Shown piece by piece: positions 10,231 to 52,683 of a DNA stretch of 64,000 nucleotides. The first letter of the stretch is position 1; each line of letters opens with the position of its first letter. The stretch spans positions 1,984,001-2,048,000 of the forward strand of contig NZ_CP034562.1 of assembly GCF_003970675.1 (NCBI RefSeq), given 5' to 3'. A program made the translations under genes and the position numbers. Source of the DNA: Flammeovirga pectinis (GTDB lineage Bacteria; Bacteroidota; Bacteroidia; Cytophagales; Flammeovirgaceae). The notes beneath the pieces were generated by a model, which ran no database searches, had not been told where the DNA came from, and saw only the letters and a list, made by a program, of their open reading frames with translations.

Positions 10231-11367
10231 ATGGAGAATTTTGTTGTTTCGGCGCGTAAATACCGTCCGAATACATTCCAATCCGTTGTTGGTCAAGAAC
10301 ATATCACAAATACATTAAAGAATGCTGTAATGAGTAATCATTTAGCACAGGCTTTTTTATTTTGTGGACCAAGAGGTGTTGGTAAAACAACAAACGCACG
10401 TATTTTGGCTAAAACCATTAATTGCGACACTCCAACTGAAGACGGTAACCCTTGTAATACTTGTAATTCTTGTACAAGTTTTAACAATAATGCTTCTTTG
10501 AACATTGTTGAACTAGATGCCGCTTCTAATAATTCTGTAGAAGATATTAGAAACCTTATCGAACAAGTACGTTATGCCCCTCAACCAGGCAAAAAGAAAG
10601 TTTATATTATTGATGAGGTGCACATGCTTTCTACTGCAGCTTTTAATGCTTTCTTAAAAACATTAGAAGAACCACCTGCCTATGCTATTTTTATTCTAGC
10701 AACTACAGAAAAACATAAAATTCTACCTACAATTCTTTCTAGATGTCAAATCTTTGATTTTAATAGAATCACAGTTAAAGATATTGTAAAGCAATTAAAA
10801 GACATTGCTGATCAAGAAGGAATTCAAACAGATGACGATGCTTTACACCTTATTGCTCAAAAAGCAGATGGTGGTATGCGTGATGCCTTATCTATGTTTG
10901 ATATGATAGGTACATTTTCGAATAATAAATCAATCGATTATCAGACAACTGTTGATAATCTTCATATTCTTGATTACGATTATTACTTTAAACTCACAGA
11001 TTTTATTAATAAAGGCAATGCCTCTCAAGCTTTACTTCTTTTTGATGAAATTCTGAGAAAAGGTTTTGATGGCCATAATTTCATTATTGGTCTATCAGAA
11101 CATTTTAGAAATATTTTAGTTTGTAAAGACGCAGTTACTTTAGATTTACTTGATGTATCTGAAACTGTAAAACAGCGTTATAATCAGCAAGCTAAAGAAG
11201 TTCCTCAATCTTTTATTATGACTGCCCTAAACTTAGGGAGTGAATGTGATTTAAGGTTTAAGGAGAGCAAAAACCAACGTTTGCATGTTGAACTGACATT
11301 AATGAAAATGTCTCATATCAATAAAGCAATTCGCCTTGCTCAGATAGAAATAAAAAAAAAAGATTAG
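10231..11367 (+). CDS. dnaX: DnaX short form (gamma-like, zero-frame product)
   Basis: Reading straight through the A10 tract gives 378 residues ending ...IEIKKKD before a TAG at 11365-11367. It contains the complete ATPase and lid domains plus most of the collar domain III, but lacks the tau C-terminal regions that contact helicase and polymerase. This mirrors the E. coli gamma product, which also ends just after a slippery A-rich site. Whether the short form accumulates here is inferred from the layout alone. Confidence 0.6.
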   Translation: MENFVVSARKYRPNTFQSVVGQEHITNTLKNAVMSNHLAQAFLFCGPRGVGKTTNARILAKTINCDTPTEDGNPCNTCNSCTSFNNNASLNIVELDAASNNSVEDIRNLIEQVRYAPQPGKKKVYIIDEVHMLSTAAFNAFLKTLEEPPAYAIFILATTEKHKILPTILSRCQIFDFNRITVKDIVKQLKDIADQEGIQTDDDALHLIAQKADGGMRDALSMFDMIGTFSNNKSIDYQTTVDNLHILDYDYYFKLTDFINKGNASQALLLFDEILRKGFDGHNFIIGLSEHFRNILVCKDAVTLDLLDVSETVKQRYNQQAKEVPQSFIMTALNLGSECDLRFKESKNQRLHVELTLMKMSHINKAIRLAQIEIKKKD

Positions 11368-12080
11368 CTGAACTAAAAGCTAAACAAAAGGCATTAGAGG
11401 TTAAGACTTCTCCAAATACGGATAAAGACACATCTACAGAAAGTACTTCATCTCCTATTTCTGTTTTAGAAGAACTACAGGCAGAAGCTAATAAAATTCA
11501 AATCCAGCCTACAACTAAAATATCTGGCAACCTAGAACAGCTTAAAAGTGGCCTTTCTAGAAAAGCTAAAGATATTAAGGCAAATGAATCTAAAGTAAAC
11601 ACTGCGGTTACAAACCAAAATTCTTCTGTTTCTAATATGCCTCCACCTCCCCCTAATAATTTTGGTGGTACTTCAAAAAAGAAAGTTTCTAAATCTGTCG
11701 GGCAATCTTTTACTTTAGAATCAGCTCAAAAAGTATGGAAATCATTTGCTGATCATTATAGCTCAAATGGTAAAAGTAAATTTGCGAGTATTCTATTAGA
11801 TGAGGCAACAATTTCTTTAGATTCTCAGCTGAATGTAATTGTAGATATTACAAACTCTATTCAGAATGATCATTTAGCAATAGTTCGCTCAGATTTATTA
11901 AGACAATTACGTTCAGATTTAAAAAATGAAACGATAGAAATTTCTACACGAATTGTTCAATTAGAAAATTCTAATGAGCCTAAGAAAATGTATTCTGCTC
12001 AGGATAAATTTAAATTTTTACAAGACAAATATCCTGCATTAAAAACTTTAAGACAAAAGCTTGGGTTAGACTTTGATTAA
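10231..12080 (+). CDS. dnaX: DNA polymerase III subunits gamma/tau (full tau by -1 frame change)
   Basis: This is the clamp-loader ATPase of the replicative polymerase. In the first frame Walker A is GPRGVGKTT near residue 46, a Cys cluster (CDTP...CNTCNSC) forms the zinc module, Walker B is VYIIDEVHML, and GGMRDALSMFD marks sensor 2. That frame stops at 11367 right after an A10 tract. The -1 frame is open from the tract to 12080 and ends YSAQDKFKFLQDKYPALKTL-RQKLGLDFD, as DnaX proteins of this phylum do. Shifting back one base at 11361 joins them into a 616-residue tau, a normal length. Both halves look intact, so this is not a decayed gene. The alternative to recoding is one missing A in the assembled tract. 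Confidence 0.88.
11352..11383 (+). promoter_or_regulatory. dnaX slippery A10 tract with adjacent stem-loop
   Basis: Ten A's (11352-11361) are read as AUA AAA AAA AAA in the zero frame and contain several A-AAA-AAA heptamers, the best-known kind of -1 slippery site. The zero-frame stop TAG is at 11365. A 6-base stem TTAGCT (11364-11369) with AGCTAA (11378-11383) starts two bases after the tract. E. coli dnaX uses ribosomal frameshifting at A-AAA-AAG before a hairpin; Thermus dnaX uses transcript slippage on A9. The sequence alone cannot tell which operates here. Confidence 0.7.
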
Positions 12081-13149
12081 TTTTGACAACTTAGTTAACC
12101 AGTTTTTAATTATTAGTATATTCTTCCATTTAGGAATTACTACTAGTTTTTGTCAGACTTCGACAGTAAAATTAGATTACGATACTACCTTTTATACTTC
12201 CTATAATGACGACCTCCATATTCGTCTTTACACTGTATACAAATTCAACGATCTATTAATTCAAGATCGAAATGACCGTTCCAATAACATCATTTACTCT
12301 CCTAACGGTAATTTAAATGTTGGGTTTGGATTTACCTATAGAGGTCTAGGTATTAATATAGGCCTAAATCTACCTTCTATTAATGATGACGATGATATTT
12401 ATGGCAAAACCACTAAACTGGATATGCGTTCTTACATGTATGGACGTAAATATGCAATTGATTTTGGTTTGCAGTTTTATCAAGGTTTCTATTTGAAAAA
12501 CACCATTAATAGAGTTCCACCTTTTCCTGACATAGGCCCTCCACAAGAAATTAGGGGTGACATGCAGGTAAATACAATAGGCTTTACAGCTTTTAAGATT
12601 CACAATTACGAAAAATTCTCTTTTAGAGCTGCTTTTTCGCAAACTGAAGTACAAAAAAAGACTGCAGGATCTCCAATTTATGGTCCTTATTTAAATATAC
12701 TCCACTTCTCTGCAGATTCTGCCTTAATACAAGATGGGGACCATGGCTTAATTTCTAATGTTAAAGATGGCTGGTATACTAGTACTGGTTTTGCAGGTGG
12801 ATATGCTTTTTCTCTTGTGCTTTTCAAACAATTTTTCATTACAGGGTCTGCTGCATTAGGTTATGGATTGGCTATCGGGAATTCTACTTTAGAAAACATT
12901 AATGGCAATACTACTGAATTTACAATTGGTGGTGGAATTAAAGTTAACGCACGCAGTGCAATTGGCTATAATAACGATAAAACTTATGTTGGTTTATCTA
13001 TTGTTTTTGAAAGCTACAACGTTAATACCCCCGATGATTATTTAAAACTATACATGATGGGACAATTTAGGTTTAATATTGTGCGAAGGTTTGACTGGAA
13101 AGTTGGGCCCTTAGATTGGATTATGGATAGAACTCCCGGATTTAAGTAA
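12073..13149 (+). CDS. DUF4421 outer-membrane-type protein, copy 1
   Basis: The 358-residue exported protein has a hydrophobic N-terminus (FLIISIFFHLGI) and then beta-rich repeats ending in a membrane-barrel-like C-terminus (FRFNIVRRFDWKVGPLDW). The pattern 'RLYTVYKFN ... YSPNGNLNVGFGFTYRGLGINIG' fits DUF4421, a Bacteroidota family of presumed outer membrane barrels of unknown role. There is no ATG near the start; a stop at 12067 limits the frame, so TTG at 12073 is the likely start. It overlaps the dnaX end by 8 bases and is probably read from the same transcript. A close paralogue follows at 13263. Confidence 0.8.
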   Translation: MINFDNLVNQFLIISIFFHLGITTSFCQTSTVKLDYDTTFYTSYNDDLHIRLYTVYKFNDLLIQDRNDRSNNIIYSPNGNLNVGFGFTYRGLGINIGLNLPSINDDDDIYGKTTKLDMRSYMYGRKYAIDFGLQFYQGFYLKNTINRVPPFPDIGPPQEIRGDMQVNTIGFTAFKIHNYEKFSFRAAFSQTEVQKKTAGSPIYGPYLNILHFSADSALIQDGDHGLISNVKDGWYTSTGFAGGYAFSLVLFKQFFITGSAALGYGLAIGNSTLENINGNTTEFTIGGGIKVNARSAIGYNNDKTYVGLSIVFESYNVNTPDDYLKLYMMGQFRFNIVRRFDWKVGPLDWIMDRTPGFK

Positions 13150-13262: not shown

Positions 13263-14372
13263 TTGAAGAATATATTTGTATTAACTTTACTTTCTAGTTT
13301 CCTTTTGATTTTAGGAATGACCAATTCATCTTTGGCTCAAGAATTCCATGATAATCATCCATCAGATCATGATACAACGTATTATATTTCTTACAATGAA
13401 CAACTTCATTTAAGGCTATATACTGTATATAAATACAATAATTTAATAGTAAATGCTGATGAGCAAGGAAATGACAACCTCACTTATACACCAAATGGCA
13501 ATTTAAATGTAGGTTTTGGTTTTAACTACAAAGGTCTAGGTATTAATATAGGTCTTAATTTACCTGCAATTAATAATGACGATGATAAATTTGGAGAAAC
13601 TCAAAAACTAGATATGAGATCTTATGTCTACGGTAGAAAATACGCTTTTGATCTAGGCTTACAATTTTATAAAGGCTTCTATATAAGTGAACTTAATAGA
13701 GATACCCCTCCTGATAATACCGACCCAATTGAATTAAGAGGAGATATGAAAATCCATACAGTTGGAGTTTCGGTTTTGAAAATTCACAATCATGAAAAAT
13801 TCTCTTTTAGGGCGGCATTTGCGCAAACAGAGGTACAAAAAAAGACTGCAGGCTCTATAATTTATGGTCCTTATATTAACTTTGTTAGAATTAAAGCAGA
13901 TTCTTCTTTAATCCCAGAATACATAAGAAATGAATATCTCTTATCTTCTAATATTGTAGAAGGCTGGTATGGTAGCATGGGTATTGCTGGAGGTTATGCA
14001 CAATCTTTAATTCTTTTTAAACGCTTTTTTATTACTGCTGCTGCTGCTATAGGCTATGGTGCTACTTTTGGACATTCTTATTATGAAACTCAAAAAGGTA
14101 ATGTAAACGATACAGCATGGAAAGGTGGTGTGAAAATAAATTCTAGAGTTGCGTTAGGGTATAATACCGAAAGAACGTACGTAGGTGGCTCATTTGTCTT
14201 AGAATCTTATAATATAACAACAAGTGAAGAAAATATGAGTCTCTATTGGATGGGACAATTTAGATTTAATGTTGTTAGAAGGTTTAATTGGAAAGTTGGT
14301 CCATTAGATTGGGCCTTTGATAAAAAAGATAAGTTATTGAAGTCAGGGCCATACAAAAAACAAAAGAATTAA
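13263..14372 (+). CDS. DUF4421 outer-membrane-type protein, copy 2
   Basis: This is a 369-residue paralogue of the preceding gene. Long stretches are shared (GNLNVGFGF-Y-GLGINIG, KLDMRSY-YGRKYA, KFSFRAAF-QTEVQKKTAGS, GQFRFNVVRRF), pointing to tandem duplication. A TTG start gives a textbook signal peptide (MKNIFVLTLLSSFLLILGMTNSSLAQ); the nearby ATG at 13247 is in another frame. The two copies diverge mainly in the loop regions between the conserved strands. Function is unknown. A terminator follows at 14451. Confidence 0.8.
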   Translation: MKNIFVLTLLSSFLLILGMTNSSLAQEFHDNHPSDHDTTYYISYNEQLHLRLYTVYKYNNLIVNADEQGNDNLTYTPNGNLNVGFGFNYKGLGINIGLNLPAINNDDDKFGETQKLDMRSYVYGRKYAFDLGLQFYKGFYISELNRDTPPDNTDPIELRGDMKIHTVGVSVLKIHNHEKFSFRAAFAQTEVQKKTAGSIIYGPYINFVRIKADSSLIPEYIRNEYLLSSNIVEGWYGSMGIAGGYAQSLILFKRFFITAAAAIGYGATFGHSYYETQKGNVNDTAWKGGVKINSRVALGYNTERTYVGGSFVLESYNITTSEENMSLYWMGQFRFNVVRRFNWKVGPLDWAFDKKDKLLKSGPYKKQKN

Positions 14373-52560: not shown

Positions 52561-52683
52561 TCAGACAATATTTTATATAATTCTTTAAATTTTTATCAAA
52601 GACTGTGATCTTCGAAATACTAAAATAGCATATTGTTTTAGGTATATAAAAGAGATTGCTTATCTATTTTAATTTTTTTTTTT

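Follow-up and report, generated by a model that had tools for sequence, protein, structure and literature searches.

An A10 run in dnaX of Flammeovirga pectinis as a probable transcriptional-slippage site for tau and gamma, and a candidate UAG readthrough in other Bacteroidota

Escherichia coli obtains two proteins, tau and gamma, from its single dnaX gene, where the heptamer A_AAA_AAG, assisted by a Shine-Dalgarno-like element on its 5' side and a hairpin on its 3' side, yields gamma (PMC5009743, PMC3711429). In Thermus thermophilus, transcriptional slippage occurs at a dnaX homopolymer of nine A's, and tau is the unslipped product (PMC5009743, PMC1088944). Another arrangement was described by Antonov et al. 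in 2013, who reported 17 two-ORF dnaX genes from 12 genera, nine of them with ten A's; in these genes tau needs recoding, and transcriptional realignment was suggested as its source (PMC3711429). A 2016 review ascribes reversed dnaX cases to ribosomal frameshifting and relates that the need for gamma besides tau has long been disputed (PMC5009743).

The window analysed here is a stretch of 64,000 nucleotides from Flammeovirga pectinis (contig NZ_CP034562.1, positions 1,984,001 to 2,048,000), and its dnaX gene lies on the + strand. Frame 0 encodes the gamma form of DnaX, a protein of 378 amino acids (10231..11367), which matches positions 1-365 of the 614-position DnaX gamma/tau profile NF011531 with an E-value of 5.9e-212. 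Close to the end of this ORF lies a run of ten A's (11352..11361), the proposed slippage site; the junction reads ATA AAA AAA AAA GAT TAG in frame 0, and three bases separate the run from the TAG that closes gamma (11365..11367). The -1 frame opens at AGA (11361-11363) and continues for 239 codons to a TAA at 12078-12080, thus spanning 11361..12080 and matching profile positions 393-613 of 614 (E 5.7e-18) as the C-terminal part of tau. Since both parts match NF011531, they constitute one dnaX gene split at the A10 run, and direct reading together with the profile search confirms what a sequence-only reading of this DNA had described, namely ten A's, a near TAG and a 239-codon -1 frame with a DnaX C-terminus. 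The A_AAA_AAA heptamer noted in that reading is indeed found in frame 0, and a zero-frame A_AAA_AAG is absent from the site. A further stop, the TGA at 11369..11371, had gone unmentioned; it closes the +1 frame, and with the TAG and the TGA both non-tau frames of the gene are closed. No Shine-Dalgarno-like element was seen by eye in the approximately 30 bases upstream of the run. Directly 3' of dnaX, two similar-looking neighbouring ORFs on the + strand (12073-13149 and 13263-14372) are, judged by eye, probably tandem paralogues.

With gamma in frame 0, the tau C-terminus in frame -1 and a poly-A run at the junction, the gene is of the type reported by Antonov et al. and differs in nothing essential from their two-ORF dnaX genes, as these are described in the dnaX passages of that paper; the layout with A10 is already in print (PMC3711429). 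The poly-A junction is kept in relatives: all nine loci of the genus have A10, and 202 of the 260 phylum loci have at least nine A's. The idea of an independent case in Bacteroidota can thus not be upheld, since most of the Bacteroidota loci in the comparison share the run, and two-ORF dnaX genes have been on record since 2013 (PMC3711429). The gene resembles dnaX of T. thermophilus, which slips on A9, in having a homopolymer of at least nine A's and stops nearby in both non-tau frames; the roles are reversed, however, as tau is the unslipped product in Thermus and gamma in the window (PMC5009743, PMC1088944). The Thermus order is present in 108 of the 202 tract-bearing relatives. The E. coli system has in common with the window the gene itself, the two products, the -1 direction and an A-rich site (PMC5009743, PMC3711429), whereas the window is without a zero-frame A_AAA_AAG and without a conserved hairpin, and the product roles are again reversed.

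We consider the A10 run of the window to be a programmed transcriptional-slippage site, with a probability of roughly 0.8; the site itself is real and, judging by comparison, very probably functional. RNA polymerase would slip on the ten A's and copy them into transcripts of varying A number. Transcripts that are unslipped or fall into the third frame would soon meet a stop and give gamma (378 amino acids if unslipped), and those with one extra A (11, or likewise 8, 14 and so on) would join the two frames and give tau, which by count would comprise 616 amino acids. We infer that the polymerase slips and that both proteins are made, and at some ratio; the layout, its conservation, the selection on both coding frames and the closure of both non-tau frames are seen in the sequence. 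The earlier proposal of a probable programmed production of tau and gamma at the run is strongly supported by this comparison of sequences.

The comparison comprises 260 dnaX loci of distinct sequence, the window included, which are related and were drawn non-randomly, so that the counts are not independent. Eighty of these loci stem from named genome contigs and represent the best 80 of 594 candidates listed, i.e., the closest matches; the other 180 come from genomes of the genus, family, order, class and phylum, including the window's own, and were in part picked from listed matches. The 202 runs of at least nine A's at this place divide into 161 A10, 25 A9, 13 A11, two A12 and one A13, and runs of seven or eight A's occur in six further loci. 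Broken down by set, A9 or longer is found in 63 of the 80 named loci, in the window genome itself (1/1), in all eight others of the same genus, in 25 of 25 loci from a family of another class that was sampled on purpose (f36), in 96 of 106 further loci of the family, order and class, and in nine of 40 from other classes; L018 was scored as a miss, its A10 being located 271 nt beyond the aligned part. The background is low, with two other runs of A9 or longer in 289,059 bases from elsewhere in the N-terminal parts of the surveyed genes. In the 24 tract-bearing loci with more than 55% GC, the upstream lysine codons are AAA in 78 and AAG in 276 cases, yet the run is pure A. Among the tract loci the run occurs in three codon phases, and its presence requires 21 changes on the tree.

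The tau frame was taken as the frame open for at least 300 nt past the run, profile homology having been checked for the window only. By this definition tau lies in frame 0 in 108 of the 202 tract loci, in frame -1 in 89 and in frame +1 in three (L060, L149 and L178); in the remaining two the contig ends too soon for a call. Slippage puts transcripts in all three frames, and therefore both non-tau frames should be closed, whereas ribosomal -1 shifting puts ribosomes in the -1 frame only, which makes closure of the +1 frame needless. Loci with tau in frame 0 have a stop within 24 nt in the -1 frame in 105 of 108 cases and in the +1 frame in 94 of 108, and those with tau in frame -1 have one in frame 0 in 89 of 89 and in the +1 frame in 79 of 89. 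Closure thus reaches 87-100% in the two large classes, compared to 31-47% in nulls placed at random linker or N-terminal positions of the same genes. Both other frames are closed in the three tau +1 loci as well, which are too few to weigh (nulls 23-61%). Closure tracks the tau frame through its swaps, in loci that are related and hence as non-independent trials.

The rival that survives best is programmed -1 ribosomal frameshifting on A_AAA_AAA, whereby tau would arise from a faithful A10 mRNA in what would be the E. coli dnaX mechanism with inverted products; we regard it as unlikely. In its favour, frame 0 contains the heptamer, a -1 shift is what would join the frames, and the window has a weak hairpin downstream. 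Some bacteria seem to make tau in this way, Chlorobium phaeobacteroides being a candidate with E. coli-like stimulators (PMC5009743). A tRNA-Lys(UUU) is the only tRNA-Lys seen in the genome, where most of 89 tRNA matches were read and a few places were not, and a tRNA argument against ribosomal shifting was accordingly discarded as unusable. Ribosomal shifting does not call for the +1 closure seen in 79 of 89 tau -1 loci and in 94 of 108 tau 0 loci, however; moreover, the hairpin is not conserved, the phase of the tract varies and a zero-frame A_AAA_AAG is missing in 149 of the 202 loci, including the window. The sequence-only reading had admitted either mechanism, but the two are not equally likely: transcriptional slippage is favoured over -1 ribosomal frameshifting because both non-tau frames are closed, the tau frame changes among loci and the window has no zero-frame A_AAA_AAG. 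Ribosomal shifting could nevertheless add to slippage, given that A_AAA_AAA stands in the zero frame of all 202 tracts and A_AAA_AAG in that of 53.

The hairpin in question is a 6-bp inverted repeat with an 8-base loop (11364..11383, + strand), formed by TTAGCT at 11364-11369 and AGCTAA at 11378-11383. Its folding energy of -6.3 kcal/mol (z -2.29) is equalled in two of 200 shuffles. Among the nine loci of the genus, the full set of six pairs (G-U allowed) is limited to the window and its 99% relative, and in the other seven one or two of the six are broken without compensation. The 6-base stem-loop that had been pointed out beside the run is therefore present, whereas its role as a conserved stimulator is rejected on account of the broken pairs in seven of nine genus loci.

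The genus provides a close view of the two frames of the window gene. The genome search found eight other genomes of the same genus, which makes nine with the window. All eight carry A10 at the same codon and TAG at the same place, the +1 frame is closed at an equal distance in all nine loci, and the -1 frame of the eight relatives is open for 225 to 239 codons beyond the TAG. Over the 60 bases before and the 30 bases after the run, 64 to 80 of 90 positions are identical to the window, and the run itself is unchanged. Before the run, the codon differences are for the most part silent in frame 0 (ATT/ATC, CAA/CAG, ATA/ATT, GAA/GAG); after it they are synonymous in frame -1 (TTA/CTA, GAA/GAG, CTA/CTT/CTG/TTG), with RLAEL kept. 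Since synonymous variation switches frame at A10, the frame under selection appears to be 0 up to the run and -1 thereafter.

These substitutions speak against a truncated dnaX, in which gamma would be the sole product and the -1 frame either a remnant or a protein in its own right. The frames do form two distinct ORFs, and gamma alone carries the clamp-loader domains; such a truncation is nonetheless very improbable, because the changes in frame -1 are synonymous directly from the run onward, 108 relatives with a tract have the long frame uninterrupted, the A-run itself is retained, and the -1 frame has its earliest ATG, GTG or TTG at 11637. Least credible of all is a sequencing or assembly miscount of A11 (or A8) in a gene that is truly one ORF: homopolymers are prone to error and a one-base change would fuse both frames, but alignment of the run across relatives, as had been advised, yields exactly A10 and the same pair of ORFs in nine of nine separately assembled genus genomes, which renders a miscount very unlikely, and the same -1 change would be needed in 89 of 200 frame-callable tract loci throughout the phylum.

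Mapped on a tree built from the N-terminal proteins with FastTree, the tau frame requires at least 30 changes, compared to 50 shuffles that averaged 68.6 and never fell below 60. The nearest pair with opposite frames consists of L246 (A10, tau in frame 0) and L248 (A9, tau in frame -1), the proteins of which are 99.2% identical. A one-base difference of this kind could be an assembly error in single cases, but judging by the tree, assembly error is ruled out as the source of repeated swaps of the default product. A slip site that is kept through repeated reversals of the default product provides comparative evidence that both gamma and tau are wanted. Gene callers that are unaware of the site may label such dnaX genes as truncated or frameshifted. 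The phylum-wide frame swapping, along with the UAG clade described below, is what raises interest in the gene, and both are new as far as searched: no title on phylum-wide dnaX frame swapping, nor any on stop-codon readthrough in a dnaX context, was found among the open-access titles listed.

Three loci of the survey, L054 (Bacteroidetes) as well as L059 and L063 (Bacteroidales), have no A-run and carry an in-frame TAG after 366 or 367 dnaX codons. Past this TAG the same frame is open for a long distance, and its last part is similar to the tau terminus seen in other loci. The family of the genome harbouring L063 was surveyed in 190 genomes, which yielded 99 distinct loci after a duplicate (L296) and a contig-cut locus (L291) had been dropped. 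These comprise 73 loci of the TAG type (distinct loci among L264-L362, family of genome G349), four with tau in frame +1, two with an A-run and tau in frame -1 (L294 and L295), 19 in which the frame is continuous, and L263, which derives from another genome and has tau in frame +1. Since the final 40 loci were picked for an early end of frame 0, 73 is no rate. For L029 / L263, dnaX has no A-run, its frame 0 stops at codon 383 and the +1 frame is open for 250 codons.

The 73 loci of the TAG type share a distinct sequence context. The stop is TAG in every one of them and is followed by AT[T/A] GCN AG, with GCA in 68 loci and AGA or AGG as the third codon in 72; beyond it, tau is open for 172-259 codons. 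In 67 of 73 loci the TAG is followed by a hairpin containing three or more G-C pairs; five control positions taken downstream gave 20-28 of 73. Its arms include CGCC/GGCG, GCC/GGC and GTCC/GGGC, in loci that are related. In its strict form the motif is found in 38 of the 190 genomes, with a single copy in each; in 37 of them it directly follows a listed dnaX match, G511 being the remaining one. An Rfam search of the element in four loci returned five weak matches, all below gathering scores, and none was taken as relevant. In a quick tree with some long branches, the TAG and +1 loci form one clade (SH-aLRT 98) beside continuous relatives. The four loci with tau in frame +1 (L340, L357, L361 and L363) read AGG CYT AGC TAG in frame 0 and are candidates for a +1 shift or a further variant.

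The best reading of the device in this clade is a programmed UAG readthrough; reinitiation and loss of tau are the less favoured alternatives that still have to be reckoned with. Translational bypassing was set aside, as the codon preceding the UAG varies (13 different codons in 73 loci). Reassignment of TAG is disfavoured on three counts: tau itself ends with TAG in 18 of the 73 loci, prfA is present in six of six genomes checked, and no CUA anticodon was found in the 42 tRNA matches of G385, an incomplete list that is also without tRNA-Tyr. Taking the phylum as a whole, we lean towards the view that two DnaX products are under selection in Bacteroidota and that the device generating them is interchangeable. 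A10 would have persisted while the tau frame switched at least 30 times, and one clade (Bacteroidales/Bacteroidetes) would employ UAG readthrough (UAG AUW GCA AGR plus a short hairpin, 73 loci), with four members having tau in frame +1 behind AGG CYU AGC UAG. If true, UAG readthrough of a bacterial replication gene would be a new way to gamma and tau. The clade, if confirmed, would offer a further and unrelated device with the same outcome, and a clean system for bacterial programmed readthrough.

Long homopolymers are not confined to dnaX in the window genome, which contains 25 separate A/T runs of ten or more in 6.68 Mb. Twenty of the 23 runs outside the window were inspected along with the T11 run of the window and the dnaX run (22 in total, no gene calling), and several of these 22 sit within long open frames. 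The rarity of A10 was therefore rejected as an argument in its own right, since a run alone proves little in such a genome; what goes beyond chance, in the sequences compared, is the conservation of the run at this place of dnaX across the phylum. As several other runs lie within long frames, slippage on runs of this kind may also be weak or tolerated in this organism, and AT-rich organisms may have suppressed slippage (PMC1088944). The T11 run of the window (52673-52683) has no frame of at least 90 codons that spans it or ends within 80 nt. At two further sites of the genome, a T12 run (L364, G000:C1:178443-180453) and an A11 run (L382, G000:C2:931471-933481), one long frame stops and another continues, and these could possibly represent further slippage, phase-variable or broken genes.
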